From contig NZ_JAMZGM010000018.1 in NCBI RefSeq assembly GCF_024158605.1, forward strand, positions 1-55,209: a DNA stretch of 55,209 nt. Direction: 5' to 3'. The notes under the pieces are model-generated. The model ran no database searches. It was not told the origin of the DNA and saw nothing but the letters and a program-made list of their open reading frames with translations. Source of the DNA: Sebaldella sp. S0638 (lineage in GTDB: Bacteria > Fusobacteriota > Fusobacteriia > Fusobacteriales > Leptotrichiaceae). Positions 8,370 through 21,719 of the stretch are shown here, in pieces (the first letter of the stretch is position 1; each line of letters opens with the position of its first letter). The translations under genes were made by a program, and so were the position numbers.

Positions 8370-9731
8370 TTAACTATTCACTTTTTGTATCACAGGAGGA
8401 AACCAAGTCCCGTTCTTTACCGGCTCTTTTGGAACATACAAACGAAAGTTCAGTATAAATTCCCGTCCTTTTTCTGTTGGAATCCAGTTCTTCTGAAAAG
8501 CACCTTTAGGAAGTTCCGGACCAATCCAGACAGTTAATGAACCATCTTTGTTTTTCTGCACTCCTGTTATATTATTTAAACCGTATTTATTCAAGGCATT
8601 TTTAGCTACATGATAATCCGGTTTATTATAAAGTGTTATTGACCAAAATGCTTCAGCCATTGAATCCGGCAATGATTCTTTTGGAAATACTATTTTATAC
8701 GTATTGTTTCCGTTTAGCAGCTGACCTGTATCCACATCTTTCATCCCGCCGAAATAAATTACTTCATTTGTTGTATTTCCCCAAGTTCCGGCATAATTCA
8801 CTATATCACGAAGGATAATATCATTTCCAAACTCACCTGCTCCATAAGTAACAACCCATCCGTTTTTCTCCACTCCAAAACCATTTGTTTTTTCTATAAA
8901 TTTAGGAATTGCCTTTGTTTCCAAAATGTTATCAATATATTTTTTATTTTCGGCAGAAGCTTTCATATAATCTGCTACTTTCTTAACTGTCTTCTGATAT
9001 TCAGATGCTTTAGGCATAGAATCCGGATATGATTTCAGCACCTCATCTGTTTTTGAGAATATTTCAGAACCTATCAGCTTTGAATTAGTAAAGTCGGGTA
9101 TACTAACCACAGGAGCTATTTTTATATTTGCCGGTACTTCTAAAGTAAACATTTTCTGTAATCTTACAGCTTCATCAGGCGTCCCTTTTAATTCTATACG
9201 CGCAAGCATTTTCACCTTGTTAAACGGAACCTCTATTTTCAAAGCATCTTTTGGAACATTTTTAGGATTCGTCCCTTTTAATACAATGGCGAGTTTCCCG
9301 TACGGATGATCAGGCGATGTTCTGTCGTTTATATTTGTCAGCACTTCACCCCACCCGTCTAAAAACTGTACTGTATAATAACGGTCTTTTATTTCAGGTA
9401 CATTTAAGATAACAGCATTATCTTTATCAACAGCTATCCATGACTCCATATACACCACATCCAGATTAGGATTGGCAAATTCCGATGACCCCGGTGAATT
9501 ATATTTTATTTTATTATAACCTAATTTTTCCACATTTACATCTTGGTTTTCCTGCCTTATTAATAAATATCTTCCCAGCATGTACAGATAACTGTCAGTT
9601 ATCTCATCCTCAGTGGGTTTAGCTGCGGCAAAACTTGGAATTACAAGTAAAAAAAGCATTCCCAGTGTAAAAATTTTTAAAATATTTTTTTTGATAAATC
9701 TTATCTGACTGCTAGAATCATTAATTTCCAT
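8370..9731 (-). CDS. secreted DUF1254/DUF1214 domain protein (paralog 1)
   Basis: A 453-residue exported protein. After a long basic N-region comes a hydrophobic signal (FTLGMLFLLVIPSFAAA, residues about 22-38). The mature part has the DUF1254 half (about 40-190) and the DUF1214 half (about 310-450), including NPNLDVVYMESWIAVD and FWSITLYNKPDYHVAKN. The family is widespread but its biochemical role is not firmly known; some members are annotated as membrane or cell-wall associated. AAGGAG precedes the ATG, and a good promoter and terminator make the gene monocistronic. It is clearly homologous to the gene at 35249-36607. Confidence 0.8.
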   Translation of the reverse strand: MEINDSSSQIRFIKKNILKIFTLGMLFLLVIPSFAAAKPTEDEITDSYLYMLGRYLLIRQENQDVNVEKLGYNKIKYNSPGSSEFANPNLDVVYMESWIAVDKDNAVILNVPEIKDRYYTVQFLDGWGEVLTNINDRTSPDHPYGKLAIVLKGTNPKNVPKDALKIEVPFNKVKMLARIELKGTPDEAVRLQKMFTLEVPANIKIAPVVSIPDFTNSKLIGSEIFSKTDEVLKSYPDSMPKASEYQKTVKKVADYMKASAENKKYIDNILETKAIPKFIEKTNGFGVEKNGWVVTYGAGEFGNDIILRDIVNYAGTWGNTTNEVIYFGGMKDVDTGQLLNGNNTYKIVFPKESLPDSMAEAFWSITLYNKPDYHVAKNALNKYGLNNITGVQKNKDGSLTVWIGPELPKGAFQKNWIPTEKGREFILNFRLYVPKEPVKNGTWFPPVIQKVNS

Positions 9732-9794
9732 AAATATTCTCCTTAAATAAAGTTATTTTATTCAGTTTCATTTTCATACACAAACATATAATTA

Positions 9795-9823
9795 TTTATA
9801 GCAAAATCATTTATTATTGTCAA
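9795..9823 (-). promoter_or_regulatory. promoter of DUF1254 paralog 1
   Basis: The -35 box TTGACA (9823-9818) and -10 box TATAAA (9800-9795) are 17 bases apart on the minus strand, about 60 bases before the ATG. Confidence 0.7.
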
Positions 9824-10161
9824 TTTATTTTATTAATTTTATTTTTAATAGAGATCTGTTTGATCAATAGTTATATGATGAGAATATCTGATTATAAAAT
9901 CCACATATTATTTTTGACATGTGTAAACTAAACTGCTGAAATAAAGACCGGATTCTGCTTTAGAGAAAATCCGGTCTTTAAAATTATTGTTATTCAAAAT
10001 GATATCTTTACTGAATTTTTCGCCAAAATTACCGTAAAACAAAAAGAAAACGATCATTTTTGTTTATTACCCAAATTTTATGTAAATTTTTGTAAAACAA
10101 ACATCGTTCCTCGATTTATTTTTTCTTTTAACCTGTTTAATATCAAATAGCAAAAGTCATA
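9824..10161. other. intergenic region with one strong hairpin
   Basis: No credible gene is seen. TAAAGACCGGATT (9942-9954) and AATCCGGTCTTTA (9968-9980) form a 13-bp stem with a short loop but no long T run. It is probably the 3' end signal of the GntR gene transcribed leftward from 10911. The rest is AT-rich and featureless. Confidence 0.5.
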
Positions 10162-10911
10162 CTATCTGTTCTTTTTTCTGCTTAATGATATCTTAAATTT
10201 TGAAATAAGACCCCGGTCTTTTGAAACAGAATACTCCACGGGATTATAATTTGCATCAAATGTTACTGTTTTGACAAGCTGGATGGCAGTTTCCGGAATA
10301 ATTTCCAGTGCTTTGGAATCCTCTTTAGTGGCATTTATTGCCGCGAAAGTTTTTTCCGCATAATTTACCTTTACGTTATAATATTTATACAATACATCAA
10401 ATAATGAATTACTGGAGAAATCAAATTTTTCCAGACCTGCCGCAAGACTCTTCGGAATATATGTCATAACCAGCTCCAAAGGAGATTCGTCTATATATCT
10501 CAGCCTTTCCAGCTTATAAAATTCTTTCTCGTTTTCTCCGAAAATATCTGCTAATTCATCATTGGATTTCACTATACTAAAGTCTATCAGCTTTGTTCTG
10601 CTGACCATACCCTTTCTTTGAGCTTCCTCGTCAAAACTTCTGAGCTCTGACAGATCCCAGTAGTCAGTCTTAGGCTTTGCTATAAGTGTTCCTACTCCGC
10701 GCTTTCTCGCCAGATAATTTTCCTGTACCAGTATTTCTATAGCTTGTCTTATTGTGGTTCTGCTCACGTTATACTCTTCCATCAGCTTAAATTCCGAAGG
10801 AAGATAATCACCCTCACATAAAATTCCCGAATTTATCTTCTCTTTCATATCATCCTTTACCTGTGCGTACAACGGAATATGACTTAATTTATCAATTCTA
10901 GGCTTATCCAT
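10162..10911 (-). CDS. GntR family regulator (UTRA type) of the polyol/PTS operon
   Basis: A 249-residue regulator. The winged helix covers residues about 8-75 (LPSEFKLMEEYNVSRTTIRQAIEIL, then RKRGVGTLIAKPK), followed by a UTRA effector domain to about 245. It is divergent from the ten-gene PTS/DhaKL/HPS operon. An 18-bp palindrome just after that operon's predicted transcription start is its likely operator, which fits repression lifted by a sugar phosphate. The start has AAAGGAAA about 9 bases upstream. The effector cannot be deduced. Confidence 0.9.
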   Translation of the reverse strand: MDKPRIDKLSHIPLYAQVKDDMKEKINSGILCEGDYLPSEFKLMEEYNVSRTTIRQAIEILVQENYLARKRGVGTLIAKPKTDYWDLSELRSFDEEAQRKGMVSRTKLIDFSIVKSNDELADIFGENEKEFYKLERLRYIDESPLELVMTYIPKSLAAGLEKFDFSSNSLFDVLYKYYNVKVNYAEKTFAAINATKEDSKALEIIPETAIQLVKTVTFDANYNPVEYSVSKDRGLISKFKISLSRKKNR

Positions 10912-11045
10912 TCGCTAATATTTCCTTTCGTAACATTTATTACTTACTTTCTTTCCCAATAGTGTAACAGGTATTTTCAAATAAATCAAGATATCGCATT
11001 TAACTTCTTTATTTAATCACTTTAGACATAAATCAAAGTTTTTCG

Positions 11046-11107
11046 TTGACATATATGAAAAATTATGCTAGCATAACATCAAAGACAGTATGACGTCATG
11101 ACGTCAT
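11046..11107 (+). promoter_or_regulatory. operon promoter and downstream palindromic operator
   Basis: The -35 box TTGACA (11046-11051) and -10 box TAGCAT (11069-11074) have a 17-base spacer. The palindrome ATGACGTCATGACGTCAT (11090-11107) is perfect over 18 bases and contains two overlapping TGACGTCA units. It lies about 10-26 bases after the expected start of transcription, a position suited to steric repression by the divergent GntR protein. Confidence 0.75.
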
Positions 11108-11138
11108 TATGTGTAAAATTTTAAGGAGGTATATTTTT

Positions 11139-11942
11139 ATGAGTAACACATGGCTGGATATGACTGGAAAAGTTATTATTGTCACTGGAGGAAGCATGGG
11201 AATCGGCCTGCATATAGTCGAAGATCTTCTTTCTGCCGGGGCAACAGTCGTAATTGCAGATAAGAGCAAAAATGATGAGCTTGCATCAAAAGAAAATGTT
11301 TTTCATTTTACATGTGATATTTCTAAAAAAATAGAAGTAGATTCTTTGATGGAGGAAACAGTAAAGAAATTTGGAAAAATTGACGGATTAGTAAACAATG
11401 CCGCTGTCCACGGCCCGCGACTCCTTGTAGATTATTACAATAATGACCCTGAACGCGAAGCAAGCGAGAAAGATTTCGATTTTATGGTGAGTGTTAATCT
11501 GAAAGGAGCTTTTTTTTGCTCACAGGCAGCTGCCCGTATTATGATTAGACAAAAGAGCGGAGTTATCGTAAACATAAGTTCTGAAGCCGGCAATGAAGGG
11601 TCTCTGGGACAAAGTATCTACTCAGCTACCAAAGGGGCTCTTAATGCATTTACTCTTTCATGGGCAAAGGAACTGGGAAGATTTAATATCAGAGTTATAG
11701 GCGTGGCACCGGGAATTAATGAGCCTACACCTATGGGTAATGCTGAGCATGTCGCGGAATTCGCATATGCACGCGGTGTAAAACCTTCTGATGTTTCTCC
11801 TGATTATGCTAAAACCCTTCCACTGGGAAGAGTGGGAAAACTGGATGAAATCGCTGATCTGGTGACATATCTTTTATCAGAGCGTTCATCATATATAACT
11901 GGTACAATTGTCAATGTTACAGGCGGAAAATCAAGAGGATAG
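11139..11942 (+). CDS. SDR family hexitol-6-phosphate dehydrogenase-like oxidoreductase
   Basis: A 267-residue classical short-chain dehydrogenase. The NAD(P) site TGGSMGIG is at residues 16-23, NNAA near 86-89, the catalytic serine near 147, and YxxxK at Y161/K165. The C-terminus (LLSERSSYITGTIVNVTGGKSRG) closely resembles sorbitol-6-phosphate 2-dehydrogenases of sorbitol/sorbose PTS operons, so oxidation of a hexitol phosphate to a ketose phosphate is the best guess. The start at 11139 is set by AAGGAGG; an ATG at 11109 overlaps the operator. It is the first gene of the operon, 28 bases before EIIA. Confidence 0.8.
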   Translation: MSNTWLDMTGKVIIVTGGSMGIGLHIVEDLLSAGATVVIADKSKNDELASKENVFHFTCDISKKIEVDSLMEETVKKFGKIDGLVNNAAVHGPRLLVDYYNNDPEREASEKDFDFMVSVNLKGAFFCSQAAARIMIRQKSGVIVNISSEAGNEGSLGQSIYSATKGALNAFTLSWAKELGRFNIRVIGVAPGINEPTPMGNAEHVAEFAYARGVKPSDVSPDYAKTLPLGRVGKLDEIADLVTYLLSERSSYITGTIVNVTGGKSRG

Positions 11943-11969
11943 TTGTTTTATTAAGATTGGAGGAGATTT

Positions 11970-12401
11970 ATGAATACTTATCCCTGGATAATTATTATGA
12001 CACACGGGAACTTCGGAGCCGAATTAAAAAAGAGTGCCGAACTGGTCTTAGGTCCGCTTAAAGATGTTTACTGCCTTTCATTAAACGAAGGTGTAGACCC
12101 TATGGAACTTTCCGAAGAACTCGCCGGAATCCTTGAAAAAGCTCCGGATAACACAATCATCTTAACAGATTTATATGGCGGGACTCCGTCCAATGTTGCT
12201 GCCATATATGCAGCAAGAAAGGATTATACAGTAATCAGCGGTGTTAATTTTCCTATTCTTATCGAAGCCGAAATGAGCAGAACTCCAGAAGAATGTGAAG
12301 ATTCCGACAACTGCGGTACTACAGCCGAAAGATTAATTTCTGCAGGAACCGCAGGCATATCAGATATAAGAAAAATTATGGAGGAGATGAGGAAAAAATG
12401 A
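11970..12401 (+). CDS. PTS mannose-family EIIA
   Basis: A 143-residue cytoplasmic EIIA of the mannose/fructose/sorbose family. The phosphorylated histidine is H12 in IMTHGNFG, and the family motif LTDLYGGTPSN is near residues 66-76. It accepts phosphate from HPr and passes it to the EIIB encoded next, whose start overlaps its stop by four bases. The motif GGTPSN separates it from the related DhaM domain, which matters here because DhaK and DhaL are in the same operon. A GGAGG-type site precedes the ATG. Confidence 0.92.
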   Translation: MNTYPWIIIMTHGNFGAELKKSAELVLGPLKDVYCLSLNEGVDPMELSEELAGILEKAPDNTIILTDLYGGTPSNVAAIYAARKDYTVISGVNFPILIEAEMSRTPEECEDSDNCGTTAERLISAGTAGISDIRKIMEEMRKK

Positions 12402-12892
12402 TAGACGGTATTAAGCTGGTTCGTGTTGATTTCAGACTCATTCACGGACAGGTAATCACAAAATGGAGCAATACTATCTCTGCTAAAGAAATAGTTGTAG
12501 TTAATGATCAGCTATCTAAAGATGAATATATGGCTGAAATATATATCATGGCTGCACCGCCCGGTATGAAAGTCCATGTTCTTTCTATAAACGATTTTGT
12601 TGCAAAGGCAAAAGAAGGCACATATGCATCTGGAAATATACTGGTTCTTTTCAAAAATATCAAAGATTCAAAAGATGTGGTAGAGCTGGGAATTCCTTTT
12701 AAACAGGTTCAGATAGGCGGACTTGGAAGCGGAAACGGAAGAACCTCTGTGGTGAAAGGTATTTCCATTGATATGGAAGATGTGGAAAATCTGGCTTTTA
12801 TTCAAAATTCAGGAGCTGAAGTTTCATTTCAGGTAACTCCTGAGGAACAAAAATTATCATTAGAAAAAGCTTCTAAGAAAGTGAGGGGATAA
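12398..12892 (+). CDS. PTS mannose-family EIIB
   Basis: A 164-residue EIIB with the active-site histidine H16 in RVDFRLIHGQV. It takes phosphate from EIIA and transfers it to the sugar during transport through EIIC/EIID. The length matches single-domain EIIB proteins of this family. The ATG overlaps the end of EIIA (ATGA), implying translational coupling, and EIIC starts one base after its stop. Confidence 0.92.
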   Translation: MIDGIKLVRVDFRLIHGQVITKWSNTISAKEIVVVNDQLSKDEYMAEIYIMAAPPGMKVHVLSINDFVAKAKEGTYASGNILVLFKNIKDSKDVVELGIPFKQVQIGGLGSGNGRTSVVKGISIDMEDVENLAFIQNSGAEVSFQVTPEEQKLSLEKASKKVRG

Positions 12893-12893
12893 T

Positions 12894-13634
12894 ATGTTAA
12901 TAGTAAGTATTTTTACAGGAATTTATTATTGGATTATGAAAACCGACGTGGGATATGCTATTACCCATGCAATACGTCAGCCGCTGTTCTCTGCCCTTTT
13001 AATAGGACTCATCATGGGTGATGTGAAACAGGCCGTTATTATCGGAGCTGCTGTACAGATTTTATATATTGGTTTAGTGGCTGCGGGATCAAATCTCCCG
13101 GCTGATGACTGTCTCGCCGGACTTATTGCAATACCTATTGCTTTGAGATCAGGTCTTTCTCCTGAGCTGGCTATAGCTATTGCTGTTCCTGTGGGTGTAA
13201 TGGGTGTTTTCGTTGACCAGCTTAGAAAAACAATTAATGTAATTTTTGTTCATATGGCTGATAAGTATGCTGAAGAGGGAAACACAAGACAAATTACTCT
13301 GTGTAATGTTTTATACCCTACTTTATTAAGCTTTTTCATGCGTTTTCCCATACCTTTTCTTGCTAACTTATACGGGGCAGATGCGGTGAAATCTTTTATG
13401 GATACAGTACCACAATGGATTATCCATGGTTTCAGCGTAGCAGGAGGACTTCTTCCGGCTCTGGGGTTTGCACTTACTATGTTTGTAATAGGAAGAAAAG
13501 AACTGCTTCCTTGGTTTTTTATAGGATATTTTATGATAAGATTCAGCGGAATGCCTGTAATAGGGGCTGCAATCTTTGGATTATGCGCTGTTCTTCTGAT
13601 TACTATGTATAAAAGAAAAAGTGAGGAGGCTTAA
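12894..13634 (+). CDS. PTS mannose/sorbose-family EIIC
   Basis: A 246-residue inner-membrane permease with about seven hydrophobic segments and the family signatures QPLFSALLIGLIMGDVKQA, VQILYIGLVAAGSNLPAD and a GLLPALGFALTM loop. With EIID it forms the translocation channel. The gene starts one base after EIIB and is followed by EIID after two bases. Substrate specificity lies in EIIC/EIID but cannot be read here. Confidence 0.92.
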   Translation: MLIVSIFTGIYYWIMKTDVGYAITHAIRQPLFSALLIGLIMGDVKQAVIIGAAVQILYIGLVAAGSNLPADDCLAGLIAIPIALRSGLSPELAIAIAVPVGVMGVFVDQLRKTINVIFVHMADKYAEEGNTRQITLCNVLYPTLLSFFMRFPIPFLANLYGADAVKSFMDTVPQWIIHGFSVAGGLLPALGFALTMFVIGRKELLPWFFIGYFMIRFSGMPVIGAAIFGLCAVLLITMYKRKSEEA

Positions 13635-13636
13635 TT

Positions 13637-14464
13637 ATGGAAAATAATGAAGAAAAAAAATTAATTACCGTGAAAGATGTAAGAAGCCACTGGCTTAGAT
13701 ACTATATGACATGCGAAATGGGGATTTCTTATGAACGTCTTCAGGCTGTGGGTCTTTGTTCAGCTCTGGTTCCTGTTTTGAAAAAGCTTTATCCTAATAA
13801 GGAAGATCTTTCAAAAGCTCTTCAGAGACACCTTGTATTTTATAATACAGAAGCTGTTTTTGGTTCACTTATAAACGGGATTGTAATTGCCATGGAAGAG
13901 CAGAAAGCAAATGGGGAGCCTATTGAGGATGAAACAATTACCAGTCTTAAGACAGGTCTTATGGGACCTCTTGCCGGTATTGGCGATTCTATTGACTGGG
14001 CTACCTTAAAACCGATTATTTTCGCACTTGCAGCTACTCTGTCTGCTACGGGAAATCCAATAGGATGCTTTGTCCTTCTGGCTCTGCCGGTAATTCAGAT
14101 AGCTATCGGGCTGAATCTTTCAGTTTATGGTTATAAAACAGGACGTTCGTCTATCAGAGATATATTAAATTCAGGTCATATAAAAGAATTGATCCTTGGT
14201 GCAAGTACACTCGGACTATTTATGATGGGAGCTTTATCTTCTACATATGTGAAACTTACTTCTCCCCTTGTTATCAATTTCGGAAACGGAAATGAACCGT
14301 TTGTGCTGCAGAATGTAATTGACGGGATTGTACCCGGACTGCTTCCTCTTGCAGCAGTTTTAGGAATCTACTGGTGGCTGAATAATAAAAATCAGAAAAT
14401 GATTATGATTATGATAGTTATACTGGCAGTTTCACTTATAGGTGCAATTACAGGACTTCTTTAA
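13637..14464 (+). CDS. PTS mannose-family EIID
   Basis: A 275-residue EIID. Typical features are the N-terminal ITVKDVRSHWLRYYMTCEMGISYERLQ, the internal LKTGLMGPLAGIGDSIDW, and C-terminal hydrophobic segments ending at the membrane. It pairs with EIIC. The start follows GTGAGGAGG. A 138-base gap with a hairpin separates it from the next gene, so metabolic genes downstream may be expressed at a different level from the transporter. Confidence 0.92.
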   Translation: MENNEEKKLITVKDVRSHWLRYYMTCEMGISYERLQAVGLCSALVPVLKKLYPNKEDLSKALQRHLVFYNTEAVFGSLINGIVIAMEEQKANGEPIEDETITSLKTGLMGPLAGIGDSIDWATLKPIIFALAATLSATGNPIGCFVLLALPVIQIAIGLNLSVYGYKTGRSSIRDILNSGHIKELILGASTLGLFMMGALSSTYVKLTSPLVINFGNGNEPFVLQNVIDGIVPGLLPLAAVLGIYWWLNNKNQKMIMIMIVILAVSLIGAITGLL

Positions 14465-14498
14465 AAACAGAAACTTCTTAATATATCAATATTCCACT

Positions 14499-14549
14499 AA
14501 AAGACCCTGAAATACTTTTCAGATAATCTTTCAGATAACAGGGTCTTAA
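14499..14549 (+). other. intra-operon hairpin between EIID and the MtlD-like gene
   Basis: AAGACCCTG (14501-14509) pairs with CAGGGTCTT (14539-14547). The loop contains two copies of TTCAGATAA (14518-14526 and 14530-14538). No T run follows, so an RNA-processing or stability element fits better than a full terminator. Confidence 0.5.
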
Positions 14550-14601
14550 TAATAAAGAAAGGTAATAGCAATGCCATATTGTTATTAATAAGGTTATTTT
14601 T

Positions 14602-15795
14602 ATGAAAAAAGCAGTACATTTTGGTGCAGGAAGTATCGGGAGAGGATTTATCGGCGATCTGCTGCATGATACAGGTTATGAAATAGTTCTGGTTGATATA
14701 GATAAAAATATAGTAGAGCAAATAAATAAAACAAACTCTTATGACCTTTATATTATTGAAGAAAATTATAAAAAGAAAACAATCACTAATGTAAAAGCTG
14801 TTTTACTCACTGATACCGGAAAAATCGCTGATGAAATAACAGGAGCAGATCTGGTCACTGTTTCTGTATGGGTGGATAATCTTCCCGGAGTTGCTGTTCC
14901 GCTTTTAGAAGGGCTGAAAAAAAGATACGGTAAAAATGCTGAAAGGCTGAATGTTCTTACTTGTGAAAATGCAATTCATAACGGCTCTATTCTGAGAAAT
15001 GAGGTATTAAAACTGGATGCCGCATTTACAGAGAATATGCTGGATAAAACAGCTGCATTTCCTGATACTGCTGTAGAGCGTATGGTTCTTGCCTCGGAAA
15101 GGAACGGCGTCAGAAGTGTGGATATAGGTCTGGAACATGAACTTGTTATTGAAAAAACCAAACTGGCAGATCCTGAATCAAAGCCTGTAAAAGGCGCTGT
15201 ATATACTGAAAACATGGATAAATATATAGAGAGAAAACTGTTTATTATAAACGGCGGACATGCATGGGCAGGATATATGGGGCATGTATCCGGTTTTACA
15301 ACTATGCAGGAAGTATTTCAAAATGAGACTTTTACTTCATCTGTAAAAGAAGTAATGCAGGAAATCGGAACTCTTATTGCTCAAAAATATAATTTTTCCA
15401 CAAAAGAACTAGATGATTACATTGATTTTGTTATTAACAGATTCAAAACTCCGGGTATTACAGATTATATAAGCAGAGTTTCAAGAAATCCCATTAGAAA
15501 ACTAAAAGCAGGTGAAAGACTCACAGGCCCTTGTGTACAATGTGAAGAAAGAGGTCTGAAAAACAACAGACTGATTCAGGGTATTGCAGCAGCATTTTTA
15601 TATGATATGCCCGAAGATCAGCAAAGTGTGGAATTACAGGCACATATAAAAGAACACGGCATTGAAGAATCTGTGAGCTTTTATACAAGTATTCCTGCTG
15701 GTTCTGAACTTCACCAAAAAATAGTAGAAAATTACAAAATATTAAGTGAAAAAAAGAAACTCTCAGGTAATGTATCCGCGGGAGGTATCTTATGA
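14602..15795 (+). CDS. mannitol-1-phosphate 5-dehydrogenase family protein
   Basis: A 397-residue polyol-specific long-chain dehydrogenase. The NAD site is HFGAGSIGRGFIGDLL (residues 6-21), CENAIHNG follows near 121-128, and the catalytic lysine region is ERKLFIINGGHAW (K212). E. coli MtlD is 382 residues with the equivalent ERKLF...GHA motif. It would oxidise a hexitol phosphate to a ketohexose phosphate. A second dehydrogenase is already present in the operon (the SDR), so the true substrate may be a different polyol phosphate. Its stop overlaps the DhaL start (ATGA). Confidence 0.8.
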   Translation: MKKAVHFGAGSIGRGFIGDLLHDTGYEIVLVDIDKNIVEQINKTNSYDLYIIEENYKKKTITNVKAVLLTDTGKIADEITGADLVTVSVWVDNLPGVAVPLLEGLKKRYGKNAERLNVLTCENAIHNGSILRNEVLKLDAAFTENMLDKTAAFPDTAVERMVLASERNGVRSVDIGLEHELVIEKTKLADPESKPVKGAVYTENMDKYIERKLFIINGGHAWAGYMGHVSGFTTMQEVFQNETFTSSVKEVMQEIGTLIAQKYNFSTKELDDYIDFVINRFKTPGITDYISRVSRNPIRKLKAGERLTGPCVQCEERGLKNNRLIQGIAAAFLYDMPEDQQSVELQAHIKEHGIEESVSFYTSIPAGSELHQKIVENYKILSEKKKLSGNVSAGGIL

Positions 15796-16436
15796 CATTT
15801 TCAAACATTGAAGGAATCAAAATAGTATACAGTGTAATCAATGCCATAAAATCCAACCGTGAATATCTCAGTGAAATTGACGGTGCTGCCGGCGATGGTG
15901 ATCACGGAATAAATATGAGCAAAGGTTTTTCAATTGCTGAAGAAGAAATAAAAAGCAGAGAGTCGGCTTCGATGAGTGAAGGCTTTCTGATAATAAGCGA
16001 TGTACTTGTGAGTAAAATAGGCGGTTCAATGGGTCCGTTATACGGAAATTTTTTCCGAGGTTTATATGCTGCTTCAAGAAAGTCAGAAACAATTGATAAA
16101 AATATTATGTTATCAATGCTTGAAAAGGCATGTTCGAATCTTTCCGCACTAACTGATGCAAAACCGGGGGATAAAACATTAATTGATGTTTTGGTTCCTG
16201 CTGTTCTGGCTTATAAAAAATCTGTCGAGCAGAACTGTGATTTCAAAACTTGTCTTGAAAATATGATGTCAGAAGCCGAAAAAGGACTTGAGTCTACTAA
16301 AGACATGATTGCAAAATTAGGAAGAAGCAGCAGACTCGGTGAACGTTCACGGGGACATCTGGATGCCGGTGCGGCATCATGCTGTATTATTTTACGGGCA
16401 ATTACTGATACTGCTGTAGAATTACTGAATAAATAG
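15792..16436 (+). CDS. DhaL-like nucleotide-binding subunit of a dihydroxyacetone-type kinase
   Basis: A 214-residue all-helical DhaL domain. The Mg-nucleotide loop IDGAAGDGDHGINM supplies aspartates D30, D35 and D37; GGSMGPLYG, PGDKTLIDVLVPA and the C-terminal GRSSRLGERSRGHLDAGAAS are all typical. With DhaK it phosphorylates dihydroxyacetone or a related small ketose. In PTS-type enzymes the bound ADP is recharged by DhaM; no DhaM is in the window, so the pair may use ATP directly, as tetrulose kinases of this family do, or borrow a phosphodonor. GGGAGG precedes the start. Confidence 0.85.
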   Translation: MTFSNIEGIKIVYSVINAIKSNREYLSEIDGAAGDGDHGINMSKGFSIAEEEIKSRESASMSEGFLIISDVLVSKIGGSMGPLYGNFFRGLYAASRKSETIDKNIMLSMLEKACSNLSALTDAKPGDKTLIDVLVPAVLAYKKSVEQNCDFKTCLENMMSEAEKGLESTKDMIAKLGRSSRLGERSRGHLDAGAASCCIILRAITDTAVELLNK

Positions 16437-16445
16437 GAGGTTGAA

Positions 16446-17444
16446 ATGCAAAGATTTGTTAATGATCCCGATTTAATCGTAGATGACATGCTCTCAGGTT
16501 TTGTAAAAGCAAATCCTGAAACTGAATTATCAAATGAAAATGACCGTGTAATCAAATTTACAAAACCTTCCAATCCTGATAAAGTCGGACTGGCCACAGG
16601 CGGCGGGAGCGGTCATGAACCGGCATTTCTCGGATATATCGGCGACGGACTCCTTGATGCTGTGGCTGTGGGAGAAGTTTTTTCTTCTCCGCCGGCTCAG
16701 GCATTTTACGATGCTGTCCGGGAAGCCGATAAGGGGAAAGGGGTTGCTATTCTCTTTGGAAACTATGCCGGAGATAATATGAATGTGAAGATGGCTGTAC
16801 AAATGGCTGATGAAGATGATATATCCGTAAAATATATCGTTGCCAATGATGATATCGCATCTTCACCAAAAGAAACAAAAGAAAAGCGGCATGGTATAGC
16901 CGGCGGATTCTTTATGTGGAAAATAGGCGGTGCAAAAGCTGCTTTAGGCGGTACTCTCGATGAGGTAATAAAGTCTGCCGAAAATGTAGTCAGTAAAACA
17001 AGAAGTATATGTATAGGATTATCTCCCTGTACTATTCCCGCTGTTGGAAAACCAAATTTCCATATAGAAGACGGAACAATGGAAACCGGAGTAGGACATC
17101 ACGGAGAAGCCGGAATACAAAAGGAAGCACTCAAAACAGCTGACGGTATTGCAGAAGATATTACGCACAGAATACTGGAAGATTTTTCATTCACGGATAA
17201 AAGAGAACTTGCCGTTATGATTTCCGGACTGGGAAGTACTCCTGTTATGGAACTGTATGTTTTATACAATAAAGTAGAAAAGATACTAAAAGACAAGGGA
17301 CATAATATATATAAGGTTTATATAGGAAATTTTGTAACTTCCCTTGATATGAACGGAGCTTCTCTTACCATTGTGGATCTCGATGATGAAATAAAGTCTC
17401 TGCTTGAACAGCCGGCAAAACCGGTTGGAATGAAAAACTATTAA
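16446..17444 (+). CDS. DhaK-like substrate-binding subunit of a dihydroxyacetone-type kinase
   Basis: A 332-residue DhaK. GLATGGGSGHEPAFLGYIGDGLLDA lies near residues 48-72, and the histidine that forms the covalent hemiaminal with the ketose is H219 in ETGVGHHGEAG, where classical enzymes have GIHGEPG. It binds dihydroxyacetone or another short ketose in the cytoplasm and works with the DhaL encoded 9 bases upstream. The HHGEAG variant and missing DhaM leave the substrate open. AGGAGG precedes the ATG. A 117-base gap follows before the HPS gene. Confidence 0.87.
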   Translation: MQRFVNDPDLIVDDMLSGFVKANPETELSNENDRVIKFTKPSNPDKVGLATGGGSGHEPAFLGYIGDGLLDAVAVGEVFSSPPAQAFYDAVREADKGKGVAILFGNYAGDNMNVKMAVQMADEDDISVKYIVANDDIASSPKETKEKRHGIAGGFFMWKIGGAKAALGGTLDEVIKSAENVVSKTRSICIGLSPCTIPAVGKPNFHIEDGTMETGVGHHGEAGIQKEALKTADGIAEDITHRILEDFSFTDKRELAVMISGLGSTPVMELYVLYNKVEKILKDKGHNIYKVYIGNFVTSLDMNGASLTIVDLDDEIKSLLEQPAKPVGMKNY

Positions 17445-17561
17445 TATACAGGCTGCTTATATCAGATTTTCTTGAAATGCCTTTATATTATCAAACAAAA
17501 TTTTTTTAAAATATGTCATTAAAATTAAAAATAAAAATACTAAACCAGATTGGAGAATAAT

Positions 17562-18197
17562 ATGAAATTACAATTAGCTTTAGACGAACAAAAACTGGAG
17601 GATGCTCTGGCTTTTGCGGAGAAAGTCATTGATTATGTGGATATTATAGAAATAGGAACTCCGTTTGTTATTGATTCAGGGATGAATGCAGTAAGAAAAT
17701 TTAAGGAAAAATTTCCTGATAAAGAAATTCTGTCAGATGAAAAAATAATGGACGGCGGATATTATGAATCACAGCTGGCATTTGAAGCCGGGGCTGAATA
17801 TGTCACTGTTCTTGGTGTTACTGATATAGCCACAGTAAAACAGTGTGTAAGAGCTGCAAATGATTTTAATAAAAAACTGGTTGTGGATATGATCTGTGTG
17901 GAAGACATACCGGCTAAAGTTACACAAATGGAAGAACTGGGAGCCCATGTACTGGCGGTTCATACAGGTGCCGACCAGCAGGCTGAAGGAAGAACTCCGC
18001 TTGATGATCTCAAGGTTATGACTGAATGTGCAAAAAAAGCAAAAATTGCCGTTGCAGGAGGAATCAGCAGTAAAACAATTGATAAATATGTAGCATTAAA
18101 ACCTGATATAATAATAGTAGGAAGTGCAATTACACGTGCAGCAGACCCGGTAGAAGAAGCTCGTCTTATAAAAGAAGCTATTAATAAATCTAAGTAA
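17562..18197 (+). CDS. 3-hexulose-6-phosphate synthase (orotidine-5'-phosphate decarboxylase superfamily)
   Basis: A 211-residue TIM-barrel protein. Family motifs are LALDEQ, VDIIEIGTPF, the metal/catalytic DEKIMDGG (D59, K61, D64), VVDMICVED, VHTGADQQAEG, AVAGGIS and IIVGSAIT. The known reaction is reversible aldol condensation of ribulose-5-phosphate with formaldehyde to D-arabino-3-hexulose-6-phosphate. Related members decarboxylate 3-keto-L-gulonate-6-phosphate, but adjacency to a hexuloisomerase favours HPS. The ATG at 17562 follows TTGGAGAAT; an in-frame TTG at 17550 is part of that site. An internal promoter in the preceding gap is possible but not evident. Confidence 0.85.
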   Translation: MKLQLALDEQKLEDALAFAEKVIDYVDIIEIGTPFVIDSGMNAVRKFKEKFPDKEILSDEKIMDGGYYESQLAFEAGAEYVTVLGVTDIATVKQCVRAANDFNKKLVVDMICVEDIPAKVTQMEELGAHVLAVHTGADQQAEGRTPLDDLKVMTECAKKAKIAVAGGISSKTIDKYVALKPDIIIVGSAITRAADPVEEARLIKEAINKSK

Positions 18198-18214
18198 TAA
18201 CGGAGGAAAATAAT

Positions 18215-18778
18215 ATGACAGAATGTAGAAATCTAAAACTTATTATACAGGAACTAGCTGAAAATGCTAAAGTAATAGATAATGACCAGCTTACAGAAGC
18301 TGAAAAACTAATCAAAAAAGCAAACAGAATATTTATAGCAGGAGCAGGACGTTCAGGATTTGCCGCAAGAGGTTTTGCAAACAGACTTATGCATCTCGGG
18401 TTCCAGTCATTCTTCGTGGGTGAACCCACTACTCCTTCTATACAAAAAGGAGACCTTATAGTCATAGGGTCTGGCTCTGGAAATACCGCAAGCCTTGTAA
18501 GTATGGCGAAAAAGGCGAAAAGCCAAGGTGCTGCCATTGTTACTCTGACTATCTTCCCTGAAAATACCATAGGAAGTTTTGCTGATGTAATTATACAAAT
18601 TCCGGGTGTTACCTCTAAAGCTGACAATGAACAGGAAGAACCGGATTCTATCCAGCCGAAAGGAAACTCATTTGAGCAGTTAAGCTGGCTGATTTATGAC
18701 AGTATGATCATTGACTTGAAAAAGGAAACAGGACAAACAGAGGAACAAATGTTTGCCAGACATGCAAATCTTGAATAA
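18215..18778 (+). CDS. 6-phospho-3-hexuloisomerase (SIS domain)
   Basis: A 187-residue single SIS-domain protein. IFIAGAGRSGFAARGFANRLMHLGF (about residues 33-58), GSGSGNTASLVSMAKKAK and the C-terminal IQPKGNSFEQLSWLIYD match hexuloisomerases (IQPxGxxFEQ is characteristic). It interconverts D-arabino-3-hexulose-6-phosphate and fructose-6-phosphate. It starts 17 bases after the HPS gene behind CGGAGG, and is the last gene of the operon before a strong terminator. With HPS it completes a fructose-6-phosphate to ribulose-5-phosphate route that releases or fixes formaldehyde. Confidence 0.88.
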   Translation: MTECRNLKLIIQELAENAKVIDNDQLTEAEKLIKKANRIFIAGAGRSGFAARGFANRLMHLGFQSFFVGEPTTPSIQKGDLIVIGSGSGNTASLVSMAKKAKSQGAAIVTLTIFPENTIGSFADVIIQIPGVTSKADNEQEEPDSIQPKGNSFEQLSWLIYDSMIIDLKKETGQTEEQMFARHANLE

Positions 18779-18817
18779 TCCCGTATTTTTTATAACTACC
18801 GTATATTCCTAAATAAA

Positions 18818-18850
18818 AGGAGACAATAATATAATTGTCTCCTGTTTTTA
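18818..18850. terminator. bidirectional intrinsic terminator
   Basis: AGGAGACAAT (18818-18827) pairs with ATTGTCTCCT (18834-18843), with GTTTTTA after it. It ends the PTS/HPS operon and probably also the convergent MerR operon. Confidence 0.8.
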
Positions 18851-18863
18851 TGTTATTAAAATA

Positions 18864-19613
18864 TTATAAGGCAGCTTCATTTATACAGCTTAAGGCATTC
18901 AATGTTCTTGGAAATCCTATATACGGCATACACTGTGTTACTGCTTCTATCATTATATCCTTATCATTTCCTACACTAAGATTTCCTCCAGCATGTGATC
19001 TCAGCTGATTTTCACAACCGCCGAGTGCACTGATAATGCATAATGTCAATAATTCACGCATCTTTAAATCCAGTCCGCTTCTTGTATAAAAATCCCCAAA
19101 ACACATTGCACTGAGATAATTTTGGATATGTTTCTGATTTTCGGGGGCATTTTTATGCATCTGACTGATCCTGTTCCCAAATATTGATTCCTGAACTTTG
19201 AACCCCTCTGCAAAGCGATTCTCCTCGTTAGTTCTGGTAGAATTTTCCACCGGAAGTGTTATTCCGTATTTTTTAAATACTTTATTAGCTTTATCTACAG
19301 CTTTTATTGCTTTGGGAAACCCTGTATAAGGTGCACACTGATAAAGAGCCTCCTTGATTTCTTCAGGACTTAGTCCTGTATTTAGTCCGGCTTTTACATA
19401 TTTCTTAAATCCTTTAAAAGTACCGCCGGCTGTTAAAACACACAAAGTTATCAATATTCTCTGTTTATCAGTAAGTTTTCCGTGATTATACACCTCGCCG
19501 AATATGAACTTATCTGATATAGCCGTGAATTCAGGATCTGTATCCGTTAATAAAGAATCAGTATTTCCAAACAGCTGTTTCATTTTTTTCTCATAAAGTT
19601 CTTCTCTGTCCAT
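18864..19613 (-). CDS. carboxymuconolactone decarboxylase family protein, two-domain
   Basis: A 249-residue protein built from two CMD domains (about residues 25-110 and 150-245). Each carries the LTDKQRILITLCVLTAGG or MRELLTLCIISALGG helix followed by QCxPYxGFP. The second domain has cysteine and histidine in GGCENQLRSHAGG; the first lacks the cysteine. Members range from decarboxylases to AhpD-like peroxidase partners. The setting (MerR regulator, flavodoxin/aldo-keto regulon) suggests a response to reactive electrophiles. It starts 11 bases after merR behind AAGGAGG. Confidence 0.85.
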   Translation of the reverse strand: MDREELYEKKMKQLFGNTDSLLTDTDPEFTAISDKFIFGEVYNHGKLTDKQRILITLCVLTAGGTFKGFKKYVKAGLNTGLSPEEIKEALYQCAPYTGFPKAIKAVDKANKVFKKYGITLPVENSTRTNEENRFAEGFKVQESIFGNRISQMHKNAPENQKHIQNYLSAMCFGDFYTRSGLDLKMRELLTLCIISALGGCENQLRSHAGGNLSVGNDKDIMIEAVTQCMPYIGFPRTLNALSCINEAAL

Positions 19614-19624
19614 AAGAATCCTCC

Positions 19625-20029
19625 TTACTTTATATCTGTATCCGAATTTCCCTGATTAAGTAATTCCAGCTCTTTTGCCATTAGTCTCTGATCATAATTT
19701 TCTATTTTATAATTCAAACGTTCCAGAGTTTCCTGCATTTCCTCGATTTTTTTCGCCAGCAGATCACGCTGTTTTACTAAAAGTCCTTTCCTCTCATCAT
19801 GTGTACTCTTCCCCTGCTGGAATAAATCAAGATATTTTGTTAATACTTCTATTTGAAGCCCTGCATTACGCATACATTTCACAAAACTAATCCATTTGCA
19901 GTCTTCATCTGTATAATCTCTTATTCCGCTTTTATTTCTGTTTACATTCGGAATCAATCCTATACGTTCATAATAACGCAGAGTATCCTGAGTAAGTTCA
20001 TATTTTTTACTGACTTCTGCTATCATCAT
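19625..20029 (-). CDS. MerR family regulator, AdhR/NmlR-like
   Basis: A 134-residue MerR protein. The N-terminal winged helix (IAEVSKKYELTQDTLRYYERIGLIP) is followed by a long dimerisation coiled coil to about residue 115. Cysteine 52 in VKCMRNAGL is at the position of the thiol that senses aldehydes and electrophiles in AdhR of Bacillus subtilis. The start at 20029 follows AGGAGG by 9 bases; an upstream in-frame start lacks a site. Two promoters in the window with 19-bp spacers and a matching dyad (20750-20780 and 32259-32289) are its likely targets. Confidence 0.88.
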   Translation of the reverse strand: MMIAEVSKKYELTQDTLRYYERIGLIPNVNRNKSGIRDYTDEDCKWISFVKCMRNAGLQIEVLTKYLDLFQQGKSTHDERKGLLVKQRDLLAKKIEEMQETLERLNYKIENYDQRLMAKELELLNQGNSDTDIK

Positions 20030-20125
20030 ATAAATACACCTCCTGATATTGTATAATCTAATATTCAAAATTAACCGTGCTTTCTGCAGAATAAGCCGGT
20101 CATACGAAATTTTATTTATAAATAC

Positions 20126-20707
20126 TTATTTTATATCTGCTGCATCACGAATAGTCTCAATCAATGTAAAGTTCCCGTCCTCGTATTCATACTTAAAAAT
20201 ACAGCAGTTTGGGAATCCCTTTTTTATTTCTTCCGAAGGATCCTGCCAATGACTCAGAAAATGAAAGCATGCTCCTGCATGAGATACTGCAAGCACTGTA
20301 TTATGGTCATCCTTTTCCATTATTTCCGTACATGTTCTCACCATTCTGTCCTGTACCTGTGCCCTCGACTCTCCACCGTAACTAAGGAAAAAAGTTCCGA
20401 ATACCACTCTGTCCTTAGGATTCAAGTCTTCACTTTCTCCTTCAAAAGTCCCGAAATTCATCTCTTTCAGTCCTTTCAGCCTTGTATAAGATTTCTCCTG
20501 CCCTATTATATATTCCAAAGTATCGCTGCTTCTTTCAGAAGTAGAAGAATAAGCATAATCCAGCTCTATATCCTTAAAATATTTTCCTACTGCCTGAGCC
20601 TGCTTTATTCCCAGTTCAGTCAGCGGCGAATCACATGCTCCCTGAATCTTTCTGCGAAGATTAAATAAAGTTTGTCCATGACGCATTAAATAAAAAGTTT
20701 TTTTCAT
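20126..20707 (-). CDS. histidine phosphatase superfamily protein
   Basis: A 193-residue phosphoglycerate-mutase-like phosphatase. The RHG motif LMRHGQT contains the phospho-accepting histidine H10; YSSTSERSSDTLE and the C-terminal VSHAGAC supply further active-site residues. The substrate is unknown. It is the first gene of the MerR-controlled operon, 97 bases before merR. The start follows AAGGAG by 6 bases. Its presence with CMD, flavodoxin and aldo-keto reductase genes under the same dyad suggests a stress-linked role. Confidence 0.87.
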   Translation of the reverse strand: MKKTFYLMRHGQTLFNLRRKIQGACDSPLTELGIKQAQAVGKYFKDIELDYAYSSTSERSSDTLEYIIGQEKSYTRLKGLKEMNFGTFEGESEDLNPKDRVVFGTFFLSYGGESRAQVQDRMVRTCTEIMEKDDHNTVLAVSHAGACFHFLSHWQDPSEEIKKGFPNCCIFKYEYEDGNFTLIETIRDAADIK

Positions 20708-20749
20708 TACCTGCTCCTTTTCTATATCAACTAATTTTTTTATACTAAT

Positions 20750-20780
20750 AATATATCACTTAGAGTTGACTCCAAGTCAA
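20750..20780 (-). promoter_or_regulatory. MerR-type promoter with 19-bp spacer
   Basis: The -35 box TTGACT (20780-20775) and -10 box TATATT (20755-20750) are 19 bases apart, the overlong spacing that MerR activators correct. The spacer holds the near-perfect dyad CTTGGAGTCAACTCTAAG (20776-20759). The same dyad with two changes occurs at 32259-32289. Confidence 0.85.
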
Positions 20781-20834
20781 GCTTTTTTTCTTATATTATT
20801 TATATTATATTTTCTGTATTCTGTTTTATATAAT

Positions 20835-20880
20835 AAAAGAGGCTATACCAGCCTTTGTCATAATATAGTCTCTTTTATTT
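20835..20880. terminator. bidirectional terminator
   Basis: AAAAGAGGCTATA (20835-20847) pairs with TATAGTCTCTTTT (20864-20876) with one mismatch. It serves the DUF4189 gene on the minus strand. Confidence 0.75.
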
Positions 20881-20885
20881 ATTTT

Positions 20886-21719
20886 TTATTTTTTTCCGGT
20901 TTTTACCGAGCCTTTTTCAGCATTCAGTGTCATAAATATATAACAGTCCTTTGCATATTTGCTGCATTCTTTCAATGCTTCTTTATCCGCCGTGGCTTCA
21001 TCTTTATTTACTGCTACGCCGTATGATCCGTCTGCTTTCGAAACTGCAAAAGTCGCATATTCTTTATCAGCAAATGTCACTATAGCAGTACAGTTTTTTC
21101 CGCCCATTTTACGGCAATCTCCTTCAGCTCCGCTTATGGCTTTTGCCTCTGATTCATACTGCCACGACCACCCGTTTTTCCCCATCTGTGAGTCTATTGC
21201 AATGGCTCCCCACATTTTCGGTTCATATGCACTCGTAGACGAAGTTCCTTCCAATGCACACACATTTACAAGTACTTTACAGTTTTTTCCGCCGCTTTTT
21301 TCACATTTCTTTATTGCTTTTTCATTAGAACGCTCTACTCTGGTTTTATAGCCTATTTTAGCATACGCAGCTATTGCCGAATCTGATTCTATGACCTTAT
21401 CTGTGTCTGAATATGCTACTGCTACACAACGCTGGCTGTCTACATTAATTACCTTGCACTGTTCCCCGCATCTGGCAATAACAGATTGTCTTGCAGAGTT
21501 TTTACTGGTATGTGCAGAAGCACTTGCCCATTTCCCCGTCTGGACATCCACTGCTATTGCTCCGTAATAAGTGGGAGCTACATATACCGGTGCCTGTGTA
21601 TTCCCCGTATTTCCATAACATACATCCGGTGGAATCCCTTCACCGCATACATTAATAGCAAAAGAATTAAAACCTAATACAAAAAATAATAAGCCTGTGA
21701 TAAATAATAATTTTTTCAT
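20886..21719 (-). CDS. secreted tandem DUF4189 protein
   Basis: A 277-residue exported protein with a signal peptide (MKKLLFITGLLFFVLGFNSFA). It carries two DUF4189 units: YYGAIAVDVQTGKWASASAHTSKNSARQ near residues 51-78, and WGAIAIDSQMGKNGWSWQYESEAKAI near 170-195. Each is followed by cysteine-rich stretches (CGEQCKV; GGKNCKVLVNVC; GGKNCTAIVTFADKEYATF). The eleven or so cysteines suggest disulfides in the periplasm. The family has no established function. AAGGAGG precedes the ATG. It is monocistronic with its own terminator. Confidence 0.8.
   Translation of the reverse strand: MKKLLFITGLLFFVLGFNSFAINVCGEGIPPDVCYGNTGNTQAPVYVAPTYYGAIAVDVQTGKWASASAHTSKNSARQSVIARCGEQCKVINVDSQRCVAVAYSDTDKVIESDSAIAAYAKIGYKTRVERSNEKAIKKCEKSGGKNCKVLVNVCALEGTSSTSAYEPKMWGAIAIDSQMGKNGWSWQYESEAKAISGAEGDCRKMGGKNCTAIVTFADKEYATFAVSKADGSYGVAVNKDEATADKEALKECSKYAKDCYIFMTLNAEKGSVKTGKK

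Follow-up and report, generated by a model that had tools for sequence, protein, structure and literature searches.

Gene content and control region

The window, the whole stretch of DNA analyzed here, covers 55,209 nucleotides of Sebaldella sp. S0638 (contig NZ_JAMZGM010000018.1), and our subject is an operon within it that joins a sugar transporter to the enzyme pair HPS (hexulose-6-phosphate synthase) and PHI (6-phospho-3-hexuloisomerase). Ten plus-strand genes lie within 11139–18778 and encode, in order, a short-chain dehydrogenase/reductase (SDR), EIIA, EIIB, EIIC, and EIID of a mannose-family phosphotransferase system (PTS), an MtlD-like dehydrogenase, DhaL, DhaK, HPS, and PHI. An earlier note on this DNA had listed these ten co-directional genes with a divergent GntR gene; gene calls and family checks against NCBIfam and Pfam confirmed the list.

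10162–10911, minus strand: GntR/UTRA-family regulator, divergent; orthologs at the same operon in the congener G090 (locus L045, 91%) and in Propionispora (locus L061, 61%)
11046–11074, plus strand: promoter-like site TTGACA-N17-TAGCAT, a consensus match only; the same hexamers occur in L045
11092–11105, no strand assigned: operator-like palindrome GACGTC-AT-GACGTC, just downstream of the promoter-like site
11139–11942, plus strand: SDR, sorbitol-6-phosphate dehydrogenase subfamily (PRK06171)
11970–12401, plus strand: PTS EIIA, mannose family
12398–12892, plus strand: PTS EIIB, mannose family
12894–13634, plus strand: PTS EIIC, mannose family; 99% identity to G090, 83% to Propionispora
13637–14464, plus strand: PTS EIID, mannose family
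14465–14601, plus strand: 137-base gap ahead of MtlD, predicted (as in L045) to form a 9-pair stem and another hairpin
14602–15795, plus strand: MtlD-like polyol-phosphate dehydrogenase of the HPS-linked clade
15792–16436, plus strand: DhaL, kinase subunit
16446–17444, plus strand: DhaK-type ketose kinase subunit of the DhaM-less clade
17562–18197, plus strand: HPS
18215–18778, plus strand: PHI (SIS domain)
18818–18843, found on both strands: terminator-like stem-loop of 10 pairs, downstream of PHI

Against NCBIfam, the SDR (388 bits, cut-off 304, sorbitol-6-phosphate dehydrogenase subfamily), HPS (273 against 200, TIGR03128), DhaL (173 against 138, TIGR02365), and PHI (232 against 160, TIGR03127) exceed their cut-offs. 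The MtlD-like protein (best 328 against 356), DhaK (354 against 406 for dhaK1; 415 against 492 for the fused family), and the four EII subunits, all present and all matching the mannose family, score below the cut-offs shown; despite these scores, their family membership is clear. The EIIA–EIIB and MtlD–DhaL gene pairs overlap, and wider intergenic gaps precede MtlD and HPS. The likeliest starts of the SDR (ATG 11139) and HPS (ATG 17562) each follow a GGAG-type ribosome site. The ten genes are likely co-transcribed.

Upstream of the SDR, the operon as delimited in the earlier note begins at 11046, the first base of the promoter-like site. Matches to this kind of site are no commoner in 9000–21000 than in shuffled sequence (38 found; mean 42.6). 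The window palindrome, GACGTCATGACGTC, is identical in G090, and Propionispora carries GACATCACGATGTC (GACATC-AC-GATGTC) upstream of its SDR gene. Because the search pattern was built from the window and L061 sites, only its uniqueness counts as independent evidence. It occurs once per whole genome in Sebaldella sp. S0638, G090, and Propionispora, each time at this operon; in the same genomes the reversed pattern, used as a control, matches 1, 0, and 2 places. The expected number of matches within the window is 0.01, and one unrelated match was found, in locus L088. The GntR gene and the operator-like site together suggest control by a sugar. The hairpins ahead of MtlD are no more stable than shuffles (z −1.47 in the window, −1.02 in L045); for the stem-loop behind PHI, z is −3.89, and 0 of 200 shuffles were as stable.

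Conservation and neighborhoods of the HPS genes

All eleven genes recur in the congener G090 in the same order (85–99% identity) and in Propionispora sp. 2/2-37 (Negativicutes; 53–83% identity) in the order GntR, SDR, MtlD, DhaL, DhaK, EIIA-B-C-D, HPS, PHI. The earlier note had made conserved gene order one of its tests. Order differs in Propionispora, where the PTS block is shifted relative to MtlD-DhaLK, so the set itself is kept and not merely its order, a stronger sign of joint function; a chance neighborhood is thereby ruled out. Propionispora lies outside the window's phylum, as it is not among the 98 phylum genomes listed. Its locus came from a scan with an HPS alignment (two patterns, two loci) in which absence means little. 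A query with EIIC in the order of Propionispora, 4 genomes only, matched Propionispora alone. Within the 98 phylum genomes, HPS above 60% identity occurs only in Sebaldella sp. S0638 and G090 (3 places); the other 8 HPS-like places reach 31–35%, and the four of these that were checked (L053, L054, L058, and L059) carry UlaD-type residues. In G088 (87% complete), no HPS was found beyond a UlaD-like match. This distribution looks like horizontal spread.

Family and residues together establish the predicted identity of HPS and PHI. The closest PDB match of the window HPS is 3f4w, titled putative hexulose 6 phosphate synthase and presumably from Salmonella. The protein carries the D-x-K-x-x-D motif and HPS-type residues, not E112/R139/T169/R192 of UlaD, positions that we take to separate the two enzymes. 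All 17 sugar-linked HPS rows have D113 and A169 and lack Arg at both 141 and 192. Each of the 12 plasmid hxl rows is likewise HPS-like at the separating positions, and all five UlaD-like rows have E113, T169, and R192. A mislabeled UlaD is ruled out by these residues. In a tree of 34 chosen rows, with four of the eight weak matches and one plasmid UlaD as outgroup, the 17 sugar-linked and 12 plasmid rows fall on two sides with weak support (63/46).

To the window and the two G090 copies we added the results of HPS searches in 350 genomes of the class of Propionispora, 392 of the order of Anaerostipes, and 391 of its class (E thresholds 1e-60, 1e-60, and 1e-55; HPS in 6, 4, and 1 genomes, centers included); the latter two sets overlap at least in their center genome, G099, the only genome of its class set with HPS. 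The resulting 15 close HPS loci fall into the following types, where neighbors outside the query set were identified from their first 60 to 70 residues only.

3 of 15 loci: SDR, PTS, MtlD, and DhaLK
3 of 15 loci: MtlA, MtlR, MtlF, and MtlD
4 of 15 loci: Gat-type PTS with RPE-like and GatD-like genes, no PHI
2 of 15 loci: ABC transporter with ribokinase-like and RPE-like genes
1 of 15 loci: ManA-like gene (below cut-off) with a mannose-family PTS
1 of 15 loci: NagB (over cut-off) with a mannose-family PTS
1 of 15 loci: PHI-DhaK-HPS-DhaL in Anaerostipes, no transporter in the unit

A PTS or ABC sugar transporter thus lies near 14 of the 15, and one has DhaKL only. At L089 of G830, the ABC genes are separated from PHI-HPS by two genes, read as a two-component system. 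The second HPS/PHI operon of G090 (L046, 5649–13120) is of the MtlA-MtlR-MtlF-MtlD type and ends in an iron alcohol dehydrogenase whose best matches, threonine dehydrogenase and lactaldehyde reductase, are below cut-off.

PHI also occurs without HPS. RPE-like, PHI, MtlD-like, and MtlA-type genes stand together in three genomes of the genus (L014, at 8080–10531 of contig C59 in the window genome; L047; L048). So it does at another locus of the window genome (L013, contig C19, 396–5092), where a PHI that exceeds its cut-off is accompanied by a split transketolase, a glucose-type EIIBC, and what reads as an RpiR-like gene; this could be a partner locus whose transketolase transfers formaldehyde.

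A PTS gene also accompanies HPS in enterobacteria. Six records of a plasmid collection (five Salmonella, one Escherichia coli) hold HPS at 60–80% identity; the one Salmonella plasmid viewed has PHI and HPS behind ptsG and a Pgi-family gene, under an SgrR-family gene. Among 5426 E. coli genomes, 132 carry the same ptsG–Pgi family–PHI–HPS DNA at ≥80% cover, in every case on the chromosome (one viewed), and a further 375 hold a shorter match. Near these genes, on the opposite strand, L126 and L123 carry a glucitol-type PTS and a Gfo/Idh/MocA oxidoreductase.

The 12 plasmid regions with HPS at 37–47% identity form a contrast: none has an adjacent annotated PTS gene (flanks 2.5 kb, in one case 5 kb). 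Nine have a helix-turn-helix or winged-helix gene, annotated only as such, and two others a LysR or IclR gene; zwf, gnd, or pgi occurs in 5 of 12 and an alcohol-dehydrogenase-type gene in 3 of 12. Beside the window operon there is no HxlR-like, zwf, gnd, or pgi gene, and none of HxlR-like, zwf, or gnd was recognized at the other sugar-linked copies, where unlabeled neighbors were judged by their first residues only.

This contrast bears on whether formaldehyde is fixed rather than released. Gut formaldehyde would then be captured, the sugar genes would sustain the pool of ribulose 5-phosphate and fructose 6-phosphate, and DhaKL would salvage dihydroxyacetone made by transketolase. Bacterial HPS/PHI act in fixation or dissimilation according to excerpts of PMC8879981, and the transporter-free Anaerostipes unit and the alcohol dehydrogenase ending the second G090 operon fit such a role. 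The missing HxlR-like, zwf, and gnd neighbors, unlike many plasmid hxl loci, and the apparent sugar control at the palindrome speak against it, and sugar transporters would be superfluous; we regard fixation as improbable.

A further alternative is supply of pentose phosphates, the role of HPS/PHI in archaea without an oxidative pentose phosphate pathway. Consistent with it, zwf was not found in the window genome, G090, G099, or G777. It was found, however, in 8 of 12 genomes with such an HPS, among them Propionispora, which has the complete operon; this weakens pentose supply as a general explanation, and placement in an inducible-looking sugar operon is unsuited to a constant need. This reading is highly improbable.

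The MtlD-like and DhaK lineages

The MtlD-like dehydrogenase belongs to a lineage of its own. Our MtlD tree holds 32 rows—25 of 29 places in the phylum, L061, L062, L082, and four plasmid records—and excludes L026, L029, L033, and L034, which are partial matches. The six HPS-linked MtlDs (window, G090 twice, Propionispora, G126, and Anaerostipes) form one clade (100/99), with Sebaldella-type, Negativicute, and Lachnospirales genomes as hosts. This clade is sister to the three MtlDs of the PHI-RPE loci and apart from 23 others, of which 19 belong to the window's phylum and 4 are plasmid-borne.

HPS-linked MtlDs retain K212, N217, and H220, presumably the catalytic residues, and differ close by. 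Position 218 is T in 23 of 23 others and C or G in all six; position 90 is G in 23 of 23 and W or L in all six; position 181 is W in 23 of 23 and L in all six; N92/V93 and M124 differ as well. Only some of these changes extend to the three PHI-RPE MtlDs, which have A at 218 together with G at 90 and W at 181. Judging from closeness in sequence, the changed residues may line the substrate pocket. The window enzyme is thus outside the canonical clade, lacks T218, and does not reach the cut-off of any MtlD model shown; since it stands in a separate clade, mannitol 1-phosphate is probably not its substrate. Other MtlDs occur elsewhere in the genome, in a separate MtlA-MtlF-MtlD set on contig C8 and on contig C7, and the window MtlD therefore probably acts on a different substrate. 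The genome's ordinary mannitol operon is ruled out as an explanation by the clade and by the set on C8. The C7 gene (L043, 304–3574) has a DeoC-like (deoxyribose-phosphate aldolase) gene, a GntR gene, and a gene like PTS EIIA as neighbors, and so marks a further polyol locus that lacks an explanation. A related-loci query with the window MtlD protein returned no relative.

These changes also fit a rival in which HPS and PHI have been taken over for a different hexulose phosphate: enzymes of this MtlD clade would oxidize a different hexitol phosphate, PHI/HPS would act on the ketose so formed, and the product would perhaps not be formaldehyde. The separate MtlA-MtlF-MtlD set agrees with this, as do the four Gat-PTS operons, in which HPS goes with a GatD-like dehydrogenase but no PHI, and HPS position 141, occupied by A, T, or V in the 17 sugar-linked rows and by Y or L in the 12 plasmid hxl rows. 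Yet NagB, ManA-like, and Pgi-family partners all indicate fructose 6-phosphate, and HPS and PHI score well above their equivalog cut-offs. On balance we consider it unlikely, though with an appreciable chance of being right.

The window DhaK shares 63–92% identity with other HPS-linked DhaKs and 40–42% with the DhaM-linked DhaKs of its own genome. In a tree of 26 chosen rows it falls in a 20-row DhaM-less clade, apart from the DhaM-linked DhaKs (100/99); within that group, the HPS-linked DhaKs form a six-row clade (100/100) only together with two Gat-PTS-linked DhaKs, and no separate clade by themselves. DhaK proved no guide to the HPS pathway: a search of 391 genomes from a single class gave 16 close DhaK loci, and HPS accompanies just one of them (three contexts are cut, L117 being a 7.1-kb contig and L118 and L119 beginning 50 bases before DhaK). 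Six of the 16 have a gene read as RpiB-like, and others have SDR-, MDR-, ABC-, or PTS-like genes. L108 and L109 combine Gat-type PTS-like genes, two DhaK genes, and a class II aldolase-like gene, perhaps an undescribed polyol pathway.

The operon encodes no DhaM; DhaK-DhaL-DhaM sets occur elsewhere in the genome, so that the window DhaKL may still use phosphoenolpyruvate. DhaM-less kinases of this kind include, we assume, erythrulose kinases. As the window DhaK sits in a DhaM-less clade found mostly away from HPS, the DhaKL substrate is possibly dihydroxyacetone and equally possibly a tetrulose. Salvage of a small ketose by DhaKL, as the earlier note proposed, is a tentative part of that reading. 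DhaKL could even be the core of the operon, which would then serve a small polyol such as a tetritol, with DhaKL phosphorylating the ketose made from it and the hexitol and HPS/PHI genes being accessory. The DhaM-less clade fits this, as do several of its members that adjoin genes read as RpiB-, SDR-, MDR-, or ABC-like. The PTS, however, would deliver an already phosphorylated substrate, and each of the three full operons keeps MtlD, HPS, and PHI. We give this explanation only a slim chance.

A candidate catabolic route and its relation to known systems

The operon is real, conserved, and unusual, and a catabolic role is most likely. Our specific proposal, which we hold to have about an even chance, is a regulated operon for catabolism of a sugar alcohol (or ketohexose) in which HPS and PHI act as a one-carbon-shortening module. 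The mannose-family PTS would import and phosphorylate a hexitol or ketohexose, and the SDR and the MtlD-like enzyme would yield fructose 6-phosphate or a close hexulose 6-phosphate. PHI would turn fructose 6-phosphate into 3-hexulose 6-phosphate, which HPS would split into ribulose 5-phosphate and formaldehyde, a direction suggested by operon context. In the weakest step, formaldehyde would be drained, for example by transketolase with xylulose 5-phosphate to give dihydroxyacetone, which DhaKL could phosphorylate; alternatively, it may be reduced or oxidized elsewhere. The conserved site suggests that GntR is a repressor acting at the palindrome, close to where transcription begins, until a sugar phosphate releases it.

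The cleavage direction is favored because the recurring partners of HPS/PHI—MtlD, S6PDH-type SDR, NagB, ManA-like, and Pgi-family proteins—have fructose 6-phosphate as their expected product. The interpretation in the earlier note is partly supported. Gene context (sugar transporters, the fructose 6-phosphate partners, and the separate MtlA-MtlF-MtlD set) backs its claim that an imported hexitol phosphate is oxidized and shortened by one carbon, while formaldehyde release, the exact hexitol or ketose, and the DhaKL substrate are tentative.

Several points weigh against this proposal. The HPS-PHI equilibrium favors fructose 6-phosphate. A review (PMC8879981) terms the two steps an irreversible condensation; cleavage would consequently need a strong formaldehyde sink. 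The operon itself encodes none, nor an enzyme that forms dihydroxyacetone; candidates are transketolase with DhaKL, an alcohol dehydrogenase such as that ending the second G090 operon, or folate. The PHI-only loci (L014, L047, and L048) and the four Gat-PTS loci with HPS alone mean that the pair is not inseparable, and DhaK relatives seldom accompany HPS. The separation of a sugar-linked HPS side in the tree has weak support, and sampling by similarity to the window HPS partly created the groups. The plasmid contrast used narrower flanks than the sugar-linked loci and an incomplete gene table, and in the Lactobacillus sakei plasmid region a sugar-porter gene lies less than 2 kb away on the opposite strand. 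In one Staphylococcus aureus plasmid region, pgi and gnd adjoin hxlAB, so a lone Pgi gene is no proof of a sugar-to-formaldehyde direction; the Salmonella Pgi-family protein has no NCBIfam match at 1e-15, and the enterobacterial ptsG-Pgi-PHI-HPS operon could be glucose-primed formaldehyde dissimilation.

A fermentative elaboration would make formaldehyde an internal carrier: hexitol would pass through fructose 6-phosphate to ribulose 5-phosphate and formaldehyde, epimerization of the ribulose 5-phosphate would give xylulose 5-phosphate, from which transketolase would move two carbons onto formaldehyde, and the glyceraldehyde 3-phosphate and dihydroxyacetone formed would, after DhaKL had made dihydroxyacetone phosphate, amount to two triose phosphates from one hexose phosphate without phosphofructokinase or aldolase. 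The PHI–split transketolase–glucose-type PTS locus and the PHI-DhaK-HPS-DhaL unit of Anaerostipes are hints of it; we think this shuttle quite unlikely.

Elsewhere in the window, a MerR gene adjoins a carboxymuconolactone-decarboxylase-like gene (19625–20068); a MerR 66% identical to it lies 1.5 kb behind the Propionispora operon, and none matched in L045. An iron alcohol dehydrogenase (21880–23028, minus strand), over the L-threonine dehydrogenase cut-off (PRK09860), lies 3 kb from the operon on the opposite strand. A fluoride riboswitch (Rfam RF01734; 2592–2668, minus strand) overlaps the start of gene 1373–2623, which reads as a cation:proton antiporter.

HPS and PHI are usually annotated as a signature of formaldehyde fixation or detoxification. 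If an HPS subfamily serves sugar catabolism in anaerobes and part of E. coli/Salmonella, such annotations mislead, and formaldehyde, formate, or methanol would arise in the gut from sugar alcohols, an origin so far unrecognized. The catabolic reading can be tested directly through the dedicated MtlD clade and the conserved operator-like site. Searches of an open-access library, which covers few subscription papers, gave no account of HPS/PHI in PTS sugar operons or of the full gene set, in line with the earlier statement that no described pathway uses it. Other papers treat a Salmonella clade that has lost a PTS and hexulose synthases (PMC8281233), arabitol and mannitol use in a methylotroph with the ribulose monophosphate (RuMP) pathway (PMC6685057), and tagatose in engineered E. 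coli (PMC10101011). A related arrangement is an RPE-PHI-MtlD-mannitol PTS operon annotated in Streptococcus uberis, which joins PHI and MtlD to a hexitol PTS, as at contig C59 of the window genome, and for which the excerpted text lists no HPS, DhaKL, or SDR (PMC2657157).

Against this background, the window operon shares parts with several known systems. With the bacterial RuMP module (hxlAB or hps-phi) it has in common the HPS and PHI families and the HPS active-site residues. The hxlAB formaldehyde detoxification operon comes with an HxlR-type helix-turn-helix gene and often zwf/gnd/pgi or a dehydrogenase; here, by contrast, a PTS, two dehydrogenases, and DhaKL accompany the pair, a GntR gene is the putative regulator, and the zwf, gnd, pgi, or HxlR-like neighbor of many plasmid loci is absent. 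The archaeal reverse RuMP route, which converts fructose 6-phosphate to ribulose 5-phosphate and formaldehyde and supplies pentoses, uses the same enzyme pair in the direction proposed here, but in our case the pair lies within a sugar operon and also in genomes with zwf. The PTS-dependent DhaKLM system shares the DhaK and DhaL families, whereas the window operon lacks DhaM and its DhaK belongs to another clade. The mannitol operon mtlAFD shares the MtlD family and the catalytic K-N-H motif; the window MtlD is in a separate clade and its transporter of another family. The L-sorbose/sorbitol operons of lactobacilli (sorFABCD) consist of an S6PDH-type SDR, a mannose-family EIIA-B-C-D, and a sorbose-1-phosphate reductase. 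Both they and the window operon place the SDR before the transporter and have two dehydrogenases, but the window operon has an MtlD-family enzyme, with no gene of the MDR type (sorbose-1-phosphate reductase) among its ten, and adds DhaLK, HPS, and PHI.

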